From Delphinus delphis (Eukaryota; Chordata; Mammalia; Artiodactyla; Delphinidae), in NCBI RefSeq assembly GCF_949987515.2, contig NW_027192659.1, positions 1,612,001-1,676,000 on the forward strand: DNA of 64,000 nucleotides, in the 5' to 3' direction. The position numbers and the translations under genes were made by a program. Shown one piece after another: positions 56,868-64,000 of this stretch (position 1 is its first letter; every line of letters starts with the position of its first letter). The notes beneath the pieces are model-generated. The model did not search any database, had not been told where the DNA came from, and saw only the letters and a list, made by a program, of their open reading frames with translations.

Positions 56868-58446
56868 ACTCACCTTTCCCCTTAAGCAAGCATAAGTTGG
56901 TTTTCTAAATTTGAAACCCTGTTCTGTTCTGTAATTCAGTTCCTGTGTAGCCAAGTTTACATTCCGTGTATTACTGATATCTTATGATGTTTCTTTTTCT
57001 GTGTGACTTATTTCAGTTAGAATCATCATACCTGAACCCACTCATTGTGCTTCTAAGGGCCTGATGACATAGATTTCATTGCTGAGTGATATTGCTTTGT
57101 AAGTAAATACCACAACTTCTTTATCCATTTTTCACTTTCTGCGATGTTGAACTTGTACTGTGAACGAGGTTCTTATAAACAGAGGCGTCCCAAACTTTGG
57201 GGTGGCTGTGTCTTTCTGATTTTAATTTCCCTAAGCTATAGGACCATAAGTGGAAGTGCCCTAGGCTCTGTTGCTTTGTCTTTTAGATGTTTCAGGAAAC
57301 ACCATACACTTCTCCCGAGTGTCTGTTGGCAATTTACATCCCGCCCATCAGCATAACAAGGCTCCCAGTTCTCCATGGCCTGTCCTGCCTTTCTGGATTT
57401 TACACTTTATTCAGATGGCCCTTTTGACCGGGGGGAAGTGAGACTTCATTGTAGTGCAGATTTCCTTTGCAAGCTTGCTTGGTTGGCCAAAAAGGGCGTA
57501 TGCGTTTTTTCCTGAATATATTCAGGAAAAAACGCATACGCCCTTTTTGGCCAAGTGCATCATTGTGGACGTTCTGCCTCTTTTCCTATGCTTTCAATGC
57601 AATTCCAGTCTACCTCCTGAAATCGGTTTCCTGCAATTCTGCCCCGCTTTCAAGTCCTCTTGGCAGCCTTACTTCAGTCTATTTTTGGGCGATAGCTGTC
57701 ATTTATAACTCTGCAGGTTTGTGAATTACAGTGCCCCTGAGCTCCTTTCTTCAACTCGCTTTCTTGTGAGCTGGCCGCAACACCGCAGGATGCCTTCAGG
57801 CCCTAATCTGGTTCCGGCACGGTACCCTGAGCCTTTGGTTAATTCCTCTTCCTGGTGGGAAATGAGAGTTAAATTTGCCCGTCCAGACACCTCCAGCTAG
57901 CCTCTCATTGGTTCTCGCTATTCCTGTTCATCTTTCGCAGAAATTGCAAACTGGGCCAAACAGGAGGTTAAAGGGACTGACTCTCCAAGACGGGAGTGTG
58001 TTAGTAAAGCGTCTGGAATGTTGCACCCGAGTACCAGGGGGGGAAAACTGAGACATATTTGAACACGTCTCCCGTTCACATGGTTGATCATACTCTGGGT
58101 TCCACATGCATGTTTTAGCTGAAGGAAGAATACCTTAAACCTGGGTAGTTGAAACCCGTGGAATGGGTACCATGCAATATGACTTCAAAGGGTCTTCATT
58201 TGCTCATGAACCTCTCCAATCCTATCACTGCTGTGTTTATGCCCCTGTACACATGCTTGATTCTCTTTTGGAGACATAGCAATCCATAGGTTTTAAGATA
58301 CTTACTAGTCAGGTATATTCTTAGGCGTTTAATATGGGGTGTTGAGTCCATTTCGTTGAGCAAGGAGTAGCTCTTGTCTATTCCATATTTGGCTTAAGGA
58401 ACTTTATCTGTGCTCATTTCAATCTCTGGTTTTATGCAGCACCCCA
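56868..58446. repeat. Satellite unit 37 (1,579 bp), last short unit
   Basis: Last unit of about 1,580 bp. Private CTGTGAACGAGG, TTTGGGCGATAG, GGTACCCTGAG and TTGCTCATGAACC. Hairpin 57483-57554, perfect. Confidence 0.96.
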
Positions 58447-60190
58447 ACTCACCTTTCCCCTTAAGCACGCATATGTTGGTTTTCTAAATTTGAGACACTG
58501 TTCTGTTCTGTAATTCAGTTCCTGTGTAGCCAAGTTTACATTCCGTGTATTACTGATATCTTATGATGTTTCTTTTTCTGTGTGACTTATTTCAGTTCGA
58601 ATCATCATACCTGAATCCACTCATTGTGATGCTAAGGGCCTGATGACACAGATTTCATTGCTGAGTGATATTGCTTTGTAAGTAAATACCACAAGTTCTT
58701 TATCCATTTTTCACTTTCTGCGATATTGAACTTGTACTGTAAACGAGGTTCTTGTAAACAGAGCCGTTCCAAACTTTGGGGTGCTGTGTCTTTTTGATTT
58801 TAATTTCCCGAAGCTATAGGACCATAAGTGGAAGTGCCCTAGGCTCTGTTGCTTTGTTTTTTAGATGTTTCAGGAAACACCATACACTTCTCCAGAGTGT
58901 CTGTTGGCAATTTACATCCCGCCCATCAGCATAAGAAGGCTCCCAGTTCTCCATGGCCTGTCCTGCCTTTCTGGATTTTACACTTTTTTCAGATGGCCCT
59001 TTTGACCGGGTGGAAGTGAGACTTCATTGTAGTGCAGATTTCCTTTGCAAGCTTGCTTGGTTGGCCAAAAAGTGCGTATGCGTTTTTTCCTGAATATATT
59101 CAGGAAAAAACGCATACGCCCTTTTTGGCCAAGTGCATCATTGTCGAGTTTCTGACTCTCTTCGTATGTTTTCAATGCAATTCCAGTCTACCTCCTGAAA
59201 TCGGTTTCCTGCAATTCTGCCTTGCTTTCAATGCCTCTTCATAGCCTTACCTCAATATATTTTTTAAAAATAGTTGGCCTTTATAACTCTGCAGGTTTTT
59301 GAATTGCAGTGGCCCTTAGCTCCATTTTTTAGCTCTTATTTTTGTGGTCTTGCCCCATAACCACAGGATTCCTTGAAGCCCTATTTTTCTTCTGGGGCAC
59401 CTGCTGTGCCTTTGGTTAATTCTTCTTACTGATGTGATATTAGAGTGACATGTGCCCATTGAAACCGCTACAGCTAGTTTCTCACTGGTTCCCCCTATTC
59501 CCATTCATCCTCTGCACTAACTGCAGACTGTGCGATACCAGAACTTAAAGGCATTGACTCCATGTGGGGATGTTGTTAGTAAAGCGGCTGGAATGTCGAT
59601 CCGGAGCCCCAGGAGAGGAAAAATGAGGTGCGTTTTAGAAACCTTTCCCGATCATATGGTATACCAGTCGCTGGGTTTCCCAAGCATGGTTTAGCTGTAG
59701 GAAGATTCCCTTCAACCTGGAGTGTTGGGACCCTTGGACTGAGTAGCATGAAGTATTGCATTAAACTTTCGGCAGTTGCTCACCAAAGCTCACCAATCCT
59801 GTCAGCCCCAAGTGTCCAGCCTTATGTCTTATCCAGCTGTGGGTTTATATGTGGTCAATCCAGGTTGCATCACAGCCCCTGAGTGAATTTTGTAAGAATT
59901 TTTCTCTCTTTCATTGTTTCAGCGTTTTGTTTTTAAAATTTATTTCTATAATGGGGTTTAGCTCCTTTTCACTGCTGTGTTTGTGCCGCTCTGCACACAC
60001 TTGATTCCCTTATGGAGATATATCAATACATGGGTTTTAAGATTCTTATTCCTCAGATATATTTCTCTGCGGTGTATAGGGTGTGTTGAGGCCTGTTCAT
60101 TGAGCAAGGTGTAGATCTTGTCTAATACCTATTTGGTTTATTGAACGGTATCTGTGCTAATTTCAAACTCTGGTTTTATGCATCACCCCA
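58447..60190. repeat. Satellite unit 38 (1,744 bp), long form, half homogenised and half decayed
   Basis: The first ~700 bp, through the hairpin at 59061-59132 (left arm GTGCG, one mismatch), are as close to the array as its neighbours are. From about 59,145 identity falls sharply, apart from a matching stretch at about 59,170-59,221. The extra length is a segment of about 167 bp at 59,805-59,971 that units 1-37 lack. Landmark spacing to the next unit (58723 to 60470) is 1,747 bp. Confidence 0.93.
59805..59971. repeat. Segment of about 167 bp absent from all 1,580-bp units
   Basis: In units 1-37 the text runs CAATCCTATCA directly into CTGCTGCGTTTATG. In this unit the counterparts, CAATCCTGTCA and CTGCTGTGTTTGTG, are separated by this segment. 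TCA occurs at both ends (59802-59804 and 59969-59971), as expected for a deletion at 3-bp microhomology. Unit 39 carries a diverged version at the same place, so the short form is the derived one. Confidence 0.88.
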
Positions 60191-60445
60191 CCTCTCCTTT
60201 CCCCTTAAGCTGACATAAGTGTGTTTTCTAAATGTGAGACACTGTTCTGTTCTGTAATTCATTTCTTGTGCAGCCATATTTACCCTCCCTCTATAAGTGA
60301 TATCTTATGATATGTTTCTTTTTCTGTTTGACTTATTTCAAGTAGTATTATCGGACCTAAATCCACTCTTTATCCTTCTACTAGCCTTATTACATTGATT
60401 TCATGGTGAAGAGATATTCCATTGTACATAAGTACCACATCTTCT

Positions 60446-60703
60446 TTATCCATTGTTCTCTTTCCTGGGATATTTAAGGTGTACTGAAGTTGAGGTTCTT
60501 GTAAACAGAGTAGCCCTAAACTGTGGTGTGCTTGTGTCTTGTTGATTTTTAGACTTCCCTAGATATACTCCCATGATTGGAAGAGTCCTATGCTCTGTAG
60601 CTCTGTTTTTTAGATGATTTAGGAACCACCATACACTTCTCCAGAGTGGCTCTCGGCAGTTCACACACTGCCCATCAGCGTATAAAGGCTCCCTGTTCTC
60701 CAT
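60446..60703 (-). pseudogene. L1 ORF2 C-terminal fragment in unit 39
   Basis: The minus strand reads through 85 codons that follow the C-terminal end of L1 ORF2 protein. PLWRSVWWFLNHLKNRA corresponds to the conserved W-R-x-V-W-x-F-L-x-x-L-K segment, followed by a T-L-P-I-M-G-V-Y counterpart of the usual IPLLGIYP and by QQDTSTPQF. This region lies beyond the endonuclease and reverse transcriptase, so nothing catalytic is present. It is broken on both sides and is evidence of origin only. The unit's L1 part therefore runs antisense to the plus strand. Confidence 0.85.
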
Positions 60704-60809
60704 GGCCTGTCCTGCATTTCTGGTTTTTACAATTTTTTAGGATGGCCCTTTTGACCGGTGGGAAGTGAGACTTCTTTGTTGTGCACATTTGCATTGCTTG
60801 CTTGCTTCG

Positions 60810-60881
60810 TTGCCCATAAAGTGCGTATGCGTTTTTTCCTGGATATAATCAGGAAAAAACGCATACGCCCTTTTGGGCCAA
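60810..60881. mobile_element. Foldback MITE copy in decayed unit 39
   Basis: 72 bp, still strongly palindromic: GTGCGTATGCG and CGCATACGCCC arms around CCTGGATATAATCAGG. I count about six changes from the array hairpin, fewer than in neighbouring stretches of the same length. The right end reads GGCCAAC, one base closer to a mariner end (GGTTGGCC/GGCCAACC) than in the array. Confidence 0.7.
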
Positions 60882-61553
60882 CTGCATCATTGTCGAAATT
60901 CTGCCGCTTTTCATGTGCGTTAAAGACGAGTCTAATCTATCTCTTGAAATCTGTTTCTTGCAATTCTGTCTTGCATTCAGATCCTCTTCTTTGCCTTACC
61001 TCAACATATTTTTGGACGTTAGTTTTCATTTATAACTCTGCAGGTTTGTGAATTGCAGTGACCCTGAGCTCCATTTTTTAAGTTGCTCTTTTGTGAGCTG
61101 GCCTCAAACCCGCAGGATTGCTTCAGGCCCTATTTTGGCTCCGGCGAGGCAGGCTGAGCCTTTCTTTAATTCTTATTCTTAATGGGAAATTAGAGTGATA
61201 TGTGCCCGTCCAAACCCCTACAACTCTTCTCTCATTGGTTCCCCCTCTTCCCGTTCATCCTCCTCACAATTTGCAAAATGTGTGAAACAGAAGTTTAAAT
61301 GTGCTGATTCTCCAAGTGGGGAGATTCTAAGTAGCGTGGCTGGAATGGTGAACAGGAGCACCAGGAGAGGATAAATGAGGTGCATTTTAGACACATCTCC
61401 CGATCACATGGTGTACAGTCCTCTGGGTTTTCCATGCATGTTTTAGCTGTAGGAAGATCCCTTGAACCTGCAGATTTGGGACCCATTGAATGGGTACCAG
61501 GTAGTATTACTTTAAAGGGTGTGCATTTCCTCACCCAACCTCACATTTCTCTT

Positions 61554-61717
61554 AGCGCAAACAGTTTCCAGCCTTATGTCTCATCCTGCTGTGGGTCTAG
61601 ATGTGTTCAATCCATGTTGCATCACCGTCCCTGAGGAAAAGTTGTAAGAGGTTTTCTCTGTCTCTCTGTCGTTTATTTTTTTCAATTTATTACTATATTG
61701 GTTACAGCTGATTTTCA
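61554..61717. repeat. Second copy of the segment missing from the short units
   Basis: Matches 59,805-59,971 in order: CAGCCTTATGTCT, CTGTGGGT, TCAATCCA, GTTGCATCAC, CCCTGAG, TTTATT. It is diverged, as the rest of unit 39 is. Its ends are approximate. Confidence 0.82.
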
Positions 61718-62122
61718 AAGCTCTGTTTCTTGCTGCTGTACATCCACTTGATTCGCGTACAGAGAGACATCAATAAATTCTTTTTCAGATTCTTACCAGT
61801 CGTATATATTCTTTTCCGGTGACTTGAGTGTGCTGAGTGCAGTTCTTTTAGCTACCGTGTAGGCCTTGTTGATTATCAGTTTGGTATTTGGAATGGTATC
61901 TTTGCTAATTTCAACCTCCTGGATGATGCCTCACCCCTCCCCACCTTTCCCGTTTAGCAGCCTTATGCGTGTTTTCTACATATTTGACTATGTTTTTGTT
62001 TTGTAATTTATTTCATGTGTAGCCATTTTGGATTCCACCTTTAAGTGATATCTTATGATATGTGTCTTTTTCTTTTTGAATTCTGTCACTTAGAATGATC
62101 ATACGTAACTCCTCCGGAGTCG

Positions 62123-62374
62123 TTACAACTGGCCATATTTCATTGATTTCCAGGCTGAATAATATTCCACTCTACCTAAGTACCACATCTCTATCCATTT
62201 TTCCCCTCCAGAGACATTTAAGTTATATCCTAGTCGAGGATCTTTTAAACAGAGAGGGGGTAAACATTGGGGTGCCTGTGTCCTCTCGATTTTTGTTTTT
62301 CCCAAGATATACGCCCATGAGTGCAAGTGCCCTATGCTCTGTAGCTCATTTTTTAGATGCTTTAGTAAACACAA
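62123..62374 (-). pseudogene. L1 ORF2 C-terminal fragment in unit 40
   Basis: Minus-strand frame of 83 codons. EKWIEMWYLGRVEYYSA matches the conserved D-E-W-I-x-K-M-W-Y-x-x-x-M-E-Y-Y-S-A end of L1 ORF2 protein, and LLKHLKNELQ matches the W-R-F-L-K-K-L-K-I-E-L segment. This is the clearest proof that the satellite unit contains L1 ORF2 in antisense, because this oldest unit kept the most readable copy. No catalytic part; decayed. Confidence 0.9.
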
Positions 62375-62551
62375 TACACTTCTCCAGAATGGCCGTTGGC
62401 AATATACATTTCCACTATAAGTCTCACAGGGCTCCCTCTTCTCGTTGCCCTGTCCTGCATTTCTGTTGTTTACGCTTTATGAGGATGGCTCTTCTGACTG
62501 ATGCGAAGTGATATCTTTTGTAGTATTGACTTCCAGTGCCCACCTGTTTGG

Positions 62552-62621
62552 TTGGCTAAAAAAGTGTATGCCCTTTTCTTGAATATATACAGAAAAGAAC
62601 GCATACACCCTTTTTGGCCAA
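62552..62621. mobile_element. Foldback MITE copy in unit 40
   Basis: Inverted repeat of about 70 bp. The left arm (TTGGCTAAAAAAGTGTATG) is decayed; the right arm (GCATACACCCTTTTTGGCCA) is closer to the array. The centre reads TTGAATATATACAG. Arms no longer pair fully. Confidence 0.65.
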
Positions 62622-63215
62622 CTGCAATGTTGGCAATGTTCAGCTCCTTTTCTTGTGCTTAATGGCGAGTCCTTTCTACCTCCTCAAATCCCTTTCCTGC
62701 CATTCTCCCTTGCTTACAAGTCCTTTTCTCTGACTTTCCTCAAGACATTTTTCAGTGATGGATATTTTCAACTCTGCAGTTTTGTGAATTTTACTGCCCC
62801 TGAGTTCCATTGTTCAACTCGTGTTTATGGGAACTGGCCACAAAGCAGCGGGATTTCCTCAAGCCCTATACTGTTTCCATGGGCAACCCTAGCCTTTGGT
62901 CAATTCGTCTTCCTGATTGGAAATTAGAGTGACATGTGCCTGTCTGAACACCTAGGACTTGTCTCTCATTGTTCCTCATCCTTCCGCTTCATCCTCTGGA
63001 CAAATTCCAAACTGTACGCAACAGGATGTTGACAGTGCTGACATCTCCAAGTGGGGAGACTGTTAGTAAAGACGCTGGAGGGGTGAACCCGAGCACCAGG
63101 AGATGAGGAGATGAGATGCCTTTTCCAAACTCTTCCCGATCAGACGGTATACCATCCTCTGGGTGTGACAGACATGTTTTAGCAGTAGGAAGAGTCCCAT
63201 TCATGTAAGGAGAAC

Positions 63216-63420
63216 ACCAGGGCTTTTTCAAAATCAGTGTCTCCCCGAAACCCAAACTGGGGAATTTTTTAAGCTACGGCTACACATATGTTCATTAAGG
63301 GCCTTGGGAAGTAGGCAGAGTCCAAACTTTAGATGATTGAAGTCTTCAGGGTCAGAAGCACTCACCACCAGCTTCCCTTAGGCTACACTTTAACTGTCAT
63401 TGATAGATGATGTCAATAAA
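63216..63420. other. Flank sequence, unrecognised
   Basis: Between the last recognisable satellite base and an L1 fragment. It does not align to the corresponding part of units 38 or 39. I do not recognise it; it could be an old repeat. No convincing gene. Confidence 0.5.
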
Positions 63421-63612
63421 AATATCTATTCTTTTTCAGATTATTTCCCCTTATAGGTTATTGCAAAATGTTGAGTGTAGTTCCCTGTGCTATACAGTAG
63501 TTCCTTGTTGATGATCTATTTTATACATAACAGTGTGTATGTGTTAATTCCAAACTGTTAATTTATCCCTCCTCCCACCTTTCCCCTTTGGTAATAATAA
63601 ATTATAAGATTT
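63421..63612 (-). mobile_element. L1 3' UTR fragment (antisense), outside the array
   Basis: On the plus strand it reads TTGAGTGTAGTTCCCTGTGC, TATACAGTAG, CCTTGTTGATGATCTATTTT, GTGTGTATGTGTTAATTCC, TTTATCCCTCCTCCCACC, TTTCCCCTTTGGTAA. This is the reverse complement of the end of cetartiodactyl L1 elements, visibly closer to the L1 consensus than the equivalent stretch inside the satellite unit. It lies in the same orientation as the L1 part of the units. Confidence 0.85.
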
Positions 63613-64000
63613 TATACTTCTCAAAAATGGGGGAGCCGAAAGAGAGGTATCATTTTCAATGGAAAAGCATTTAAAACAAGATTGAAGGTTTAACCAAGAT
63701 TATTAGCTGTACATCCTTGGAAAGAAATCACTTCGTTTCTCTAATATTGACCTGACAAATAAGACAAACCTTTTCACTGAACTTGCTTATAAAAAGTGAT
63801 GGAAATATCAAATGGAAGTGTTAAAAACATCTTATTTTACCCGAGCCTTATACACTGTTCTATGTTAACTACAGTTTGGCTCACACATCTGTTCATTGAG
63901 GTTACAATAGTCTCAATTTCTGTTACTGATCCTCCAGAGTGGACCCCAACAAGTGTCCCCCTGCCCAGTGTCATTGGGGCCAACAGATCGAGACTGAGTT
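63613..64000. other. Flanking DNA, no feature recognised
   Basis: AT-rich non-satellite sequence to the end of the window. I see no convincing open frame, repeat family or regulatory element. AATAAA occurs just inside the left edge but has no gene upstream. Confidence 0.5.

Follow-up and report, generated by a model that had tools for sequence, protein, structure and literature searches.

The common cetacean satellite has a repeat unit of about 1,760 bp in baleen whales and of ~1,580 bp in toothed whales, and human alpha satellite is familiar for age-graded arrays with older monomers at their edges. The 1,579-bp repeat of the killer whale is due to Widegren et al. 1985 (cited in PMC7763226). 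According to a review, this satellite family is similar to the 3' part of L1 (PMC9659126; Kapitonov et al. 1998, also cited in PMC7763226).

The array described here belongs to the toothed-whale form of this satellite: it has a tandem unit of ~1,580 bp, L1 3' similarity, a Delphinus delphis host and a very high copy number. With the common cetacean satellite it shares the unit of 1,577-1,582 bp, the very high copy number and the dolphin host. It differs from that satellite, as described in the literature searched, in its relic long units and in arrays made up of long units alone. At 1,743-1,749 bp, the relic units come close to the baleen form of ~1,760 bp, a likeness in length. The L1-derived origin (Kapitonov et al. 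1998) agrees with the L1 3' similarity that we found independently; in addition to that origin, the analysis locates the L1 terminus and A-tail within the long unit, and the deletion that gave rise to the short form is the one that removed them. Both the satellite and its origin from L1 were already known; added here are the relic layers, the resolved deletion and the replacement of one form by another, read inside one genome. Neither relic long units nor the 167-bp deletion was found in the literature searched, in which most subscription papers, including the original satellite papers, were not represented. Satellite replacement is usually inferred across species, and here a single genome contains both the old and the derived form, together with a close relative of the pre-deletion molecule.

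Organization of the array

The window, that is, the whole stretch of DNA analysed (64,000 bp), corresponds to C35:1,612,001-1,676,000, and the genome searched comprises 2,663,394,344 bases in 630 contigs. The features of the window are as follows, with slashes marking breakpoints here and below.

1-59,144, plus strand: short (1.58-kb) units forming a homogenised array, 37 of them complete when counted in anchor phase from 435 (anchor, consensus identity, junction pattern)
58,225-58,227, plus strand: deletion scar TCA in the last short unit, CCTATCA/CTGCTG (sequence, alignment)
59,061-59,132, no strand: 72-bp inverted repeat, of which each unit has one; the arms of this copy differ by a single mismatch
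59,146-60,894, plus strand: unit 38, long and decayed, its phase beginning after the inverted repeat (alignment, consensus identity)
59,805-59,971, plus strand: 167-bp ancestral segment of unit 38, absent from 37 of 37 short units (alignment)
59,924-59,971, minus strand (antisense on plus): L1 3' terminus and A-tail within the segment, collinear with L1 across the right breakpoint (L1 comparison)
60,895-62,629, plus strand: unit 39, long and decayed, of a sublineage older than that of unit 38 (consensus identity, tree)
61,555-61,717, plus strand: segment in unit 39, 163 bp (alignment)
62,630-63,198, plus strand: unit 40, truncated ahead of the segment position (sequence)
63,199-64,000, no strand: non-satellite flank, 802 bp, 98.9-100% identical in nine other fetched edge copies

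A 91-bp anchor located 40 unit starts in the window, 37 of them spaced at 1,577-1,582 bp and the next two at 1,749 and 1,743 bp (anchor phase). An earlier note on this DNA had given the last two lengths as 1,744 and 1,748 bp; the two long units stand, and the exact values depend on the phase. The extra segment, defined by an alignment of 7 of the 39 units, spans 59,805-59,971 (167 bp) in unit 38 and 61,555-61,717 (163 bp) in unit 39. Anchor and alignment together bear out the claim that a segment of ~167 bp is common to these two units and absent from the 37 to their left; its coordinates were exact for unit 38, and in unit 39 it begins at 61,555 instead of 61,554. The short-junction pattern (≤4 mismatches) matches 37 times in the window. 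Between the two segment copies, 129 of 161 aligned bases are identical (score 174, against a maximum of 14 over 1,000 mononucleotide shuffles), a level comparable to that of the 167-bp flanks beside them (129/164 and 116/166). Unit 40 (62,630 to about 63,198) ends before the segment position. Tandem Repeats Finder, for which the longest period handled is 500, reported no array in the window. The L1 3' region is also resembled at about 63,428-63,603, inside the non-satellite flank.

Identity to the short-unit consensus falls edgeward, from 99.3-99.9% in units 1-22 to 96.8-98.7% in units 23-37, and then to 81% in unit 38 and 77% in unit 39. The array is thus age-graded and resembles human alpha satellite in its homogenised core, its outwardly rising divergence and the position of its oldest units at the edge. 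Unlike in alpha satellite, the layers are set apart by a single resolved deletion, and 15 near-identical copies exist of the edge together with its flank. Homogeneity drops sharply at units 22/23 (about 35,200), where a younger expansion adjoins an older one.

The homogenised array ends between 59,145 and about 59,222, so that the first 265 bp of unit 38 (anchor phase) belong to it. Within the diverged part of this unit, ~50 bp at 59,170-59,221 match the short form again in the alignment, and this stretch is perhaps a conversion patch. The inverted repeat was considered as the exact end of the homogenised array and was ruled out by this short-form match, for which reason the end is given as a range.

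Relic arrays and edge copies elsewhere in the genome

A genome-wide search with the segment returned at least 26 places, 15 at 98-100% identity, spread over 13 contigs among which is that of the window, and 11 at 74-90%; these counts are lower bounds, since the L009 locus alone has five segments. The 24 places inspected, all except C68 and C64:735,264, without exception lie in satellite sequence, which at L019 is an isolated fragment. The near-identical places, 15 with the window's own, are copies of the window's edge: at 9 of 9 edge loci fetched at 10 kb, the 4.86 kb from 59,145 to 64,000 is matched at 99.0-99.9%. Because the edge recurs at nine other places along with its 802-bp flank, we conclude that array ends are exchanged together with flanking DNA.

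Eight of the 11 more diverged places (L009, L010, L012, L013, L014, L015, L017 and L018) are decayed arrays with 31 segment copies among them. Every unit seen at the segment position is of the long type, and no short junction was found in these eight loci at ≤4 mismatches; they are long-only relic arrays. In one relic unit (L018:4109-5571), a different deletion has taken out part of the segment.

The earlier note had also proposed looking for long units at other array edges, and within this genome the expectation held. Another array edge is represented twice, by L011 and L016 (95% identity over 7.6 kb, counted as one event), and in it short units are followed by a truncated unit that retains the segment. 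To the left of the segment, these edge units are 90.0% and 92.0% identical to a short unit of the window.

A second tandem repeat adjoins this edge (L016:5,660-9,970), with a period of about 1.2 kb and ~69% identity between copies. Its L1-like pieces match the L1 part of the satellite at ~59%, and the ~1.2-kb repeat at L016 and L011 is a second L1-derived repeat.

The deletion joint

The pattern for the long junction is CCAATCCTNTCAGCCCCAAG. At the left breakpoint, most long rows of the alignment read CCTCTCA, unit 38 and three of its copies read CCTGTCA, and CCTATCA is found in the L016 and L011 edge units, in one L017 unit and in all 19 short rows. The right side of the L011 and L016 edge units reads TTTTCA/CTGCTG. 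These edge units (CCTATCA/GCCCC...TTTTCA/CTGCTG) thus present the pre-deletion state, and joining their breakpoints at TCA yields CCTATCACTGCTG, which is the exact short junction, with exactly 3 shared bases. The claim that the deletion joins two TCA triplets is exact for unit 38; in unit 39 the left triplet is TTA. By our own formula, a random joint shows microhomology of ≥3 bp ~5% of the time, so the 3-bp TCA joint, as found, agrees with the suggested loss at microhomology or by slippage but says little about the mechanism, and the repair route is an inference. The breakpoint offers a marker for dating across whales, and the presence of all these forms in one genome makes visible where homogenisation ends.

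Spread of the short form and proposed history

The short junction occurs in 148,758 copies genome-wide (≤2 mismatches; controls 0 and 1), all on C1 among the matches listed. By multiplication, the short form makes up roughly 235 Mb or 9% of the assembly. We regard it as highly probable that the original unit of ~1.75 kb carried an L1 end, that a single 167-bp deletion at TCA produced the short form, and that this form replaced the long one, leaving relics at array edges and in old arrays. The ancestral unit would have comprised the L1 3' end, its A-tail and ~120 bp beyond. One molecule would have lost 167 bp between two TCA triplets, and with them the L1 tail junction, through microhomology-mediated joining or replication slippage as candidate repair routes. 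The short form would then have displaced the long form in growing arrays via unequal exchange and conversion, as suggested by the nested tree, the near-identical units and the copy number. Where exchange had stopped, at the edges of arrays and in old, silenced ones, units would have kept the segment and decayed, and the edge of the window with its flank would later have been copied to other places.

Age and substitution spectrum

Under this history the relics would predate the split between baleen and toothed whales. An appreciable, less probable alternative accepts the long form as ancestral and places the deletion and its relics much later than that split, or the deletion earlier, any real length difference between the two groups being a separate event. 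It gains from a substitution spectrum that makes clock dating unsafe. Against it stand the large distances (K2P 0.255 between units 1 and 38 and 0.327 between units 1 and 39), which fit a great age if rates were ordinary.

Between units 1 and 38 there are 123 transitions and 213 transversions. Within the set of 37 short units, the minor alleles comprise 122 transitions and 123 transversions; the ordinary mammalian ratio is nearer 2:1. Pairs of relic copies gave transition:transversion counts of 29:8, 42:32 and 61:41, and two copies of unit 38, a recent relic pair, are also transversion-rich (9:11). Because relic pairs vary to this extent, a difference in spectrum between active and silenced arrays is only suggestive. 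A clock date for the relics was dropped, since the transversion-rich spectrum is unusual and makes divergence unusable as a clock. It is conceivable, and in our judgement rather doubtful, that the deletion founded a form which displaced nearly the whole family (about 149,000 units) beside a surviving graded series of relic long layers, that this takeover ran through error-prone copying, visible as the transversion-rich spectrum of active arrays, and that loss of the L1 tail may have favoured the short form.

L1 content of the segment

The L1 3' end motif has 7,105 matches in the genome (controls 0). Compared with the natural L1 3' end in L019, 9 of 9 long units scored 27.5-42.5, each above the best of its own 300 dinucleotide shuffles (22.5-28.5); the short unit tested scored 17.0, below the 25.0 of its best shuffle. 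Taken alone, the final 48 bp of the segment (8 units) beat all 100 shuffles for 4 to 10 of 12 L1 ends, the result being weakest in unit 38 and L016 (4/12). From these matches it follows that the L1 terminus, the A-tail and ~120 bp beyond them were lost in the deletion. No significant PDB match was obtained for the translated L1-like piece of unit 39 (best E 0.66), exact L1 or satellite motifs were not found in a viral collection or a prokaryote genome collection, and a distant search of E. coli genomes returned nothing.

Direction of change

Two sets of trees bear on the order of the forms. The first, of 57 rows, was built with the segment columns removed and an arbitrarily chosen root, and contains 9 of the 37 short units of the window; the near-copy edge loci L022, L024, L025, L027 and L028 were left out. 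Its 19 short units form one clade (100/95), with one change of state, and the long units form a ladder that ends in L017 and then in the L011 and L016 edge units. Unit 38 is placed beside the group of short and L017 units (91/93). The tree assigns units 38 and 39 to different old sublineages, in agreement with the proposal that they decayed independently.

The second set is rooted with L1 and covers the L1-derived right part of the unit, which unit 40 lacks, so that this unit is not included. Its outgroup consists of 10 L1 pieces from the same genome, out of 12 (L034 and L039 omitted) taken from plus-strand places among the first 100 listed of the 7,105 matches, all in the first 8 Mb of C1. 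Nineteen short and four long rows form a clade (100/100) within the long rows. The short clade on its own has a support of 35/67 and appears in 38% of the 200 bootstrap replicates, an effect of the two partial edge units, in which only 15-16% of the columns are filled; when these are removed, it is recovered at 100/100. Constraining the 35 long rows to a clade (L1 root, partial edge units out) lowers the lnL by 112 and is rejected (p-AU 2.5e-6). The edge units branch outside the core units in the rooted tree. Unlike in the 57-row tree, unit 38 groups with other long units (96/86).

Columns that are fixed in short units and differ from them in 7 or more of 10 deep long rows (n = 206) served as diagnostic columns. 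The short state was found at 89 columns and the deep state at 8 in the L016 edge unit, with values of 86 and 13 in the L011 edge unit, 130-132 and 57-59 in two L017 units, and 85 and 94 in unit 38.

The long form is ancestral, and the short form has a single origin among the sampled units. The earlier note had reached the first conclusion from the presence of the segment in two decayed units, an argument insufficient alone; the conclusion itself holds because of the L1-rooted trees, the arrays that consist of long units only and the presence of the L1 3' end within the segment. With L1 serving as an outside root, both the order and the single origin of a large turnover become testable.

The reverse order, in which the short form is ancestral and the 167 bp were inserted once in an ancestor of the long units, fits units 38 and 39 taken alone, which leave the direction of change undetermined, and segment copies that are as similar as their flanks. 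We consider it very improbable, since the L1-rooted trees nest the short units within the long ones and reject a long clade (p-AU as above), which refutes it if L1 is the right outgroup, and since the right end of the segment continues the L1 3' end that lies across the breakpoint. Separate insertions of a mobile element into units 38 and 39, the case that would have undone the earlier note's reading, have a negligible probability: the segment shares one position and a flank-like divergence in both units, lies at that position in the 31 copies at eight further loci, and was satellite at all 24 places inspected of the 26. An assembly chimera of a short array and long units is just as improbable. 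In its favour, the contig that holds the window is unplaced and the assembly is rich in repeats; against it, the 4.86-kb edge recurs, with differences of 0.1-1%, at nine other places (9 of 9 fetched).

Inverted repeat

Ancestral long units and derived short units alike carry the 72-bp inverted repeat. Across 14 diverged long units it is the most conserved 70-column stretch (0.922, compared with 0.868 elsewhere) and ranks first among 1,667 windows for conservation. Its arms are perfect in two short units tested and also at L009:4344, in which one arm has changed and the other carries the matching change.
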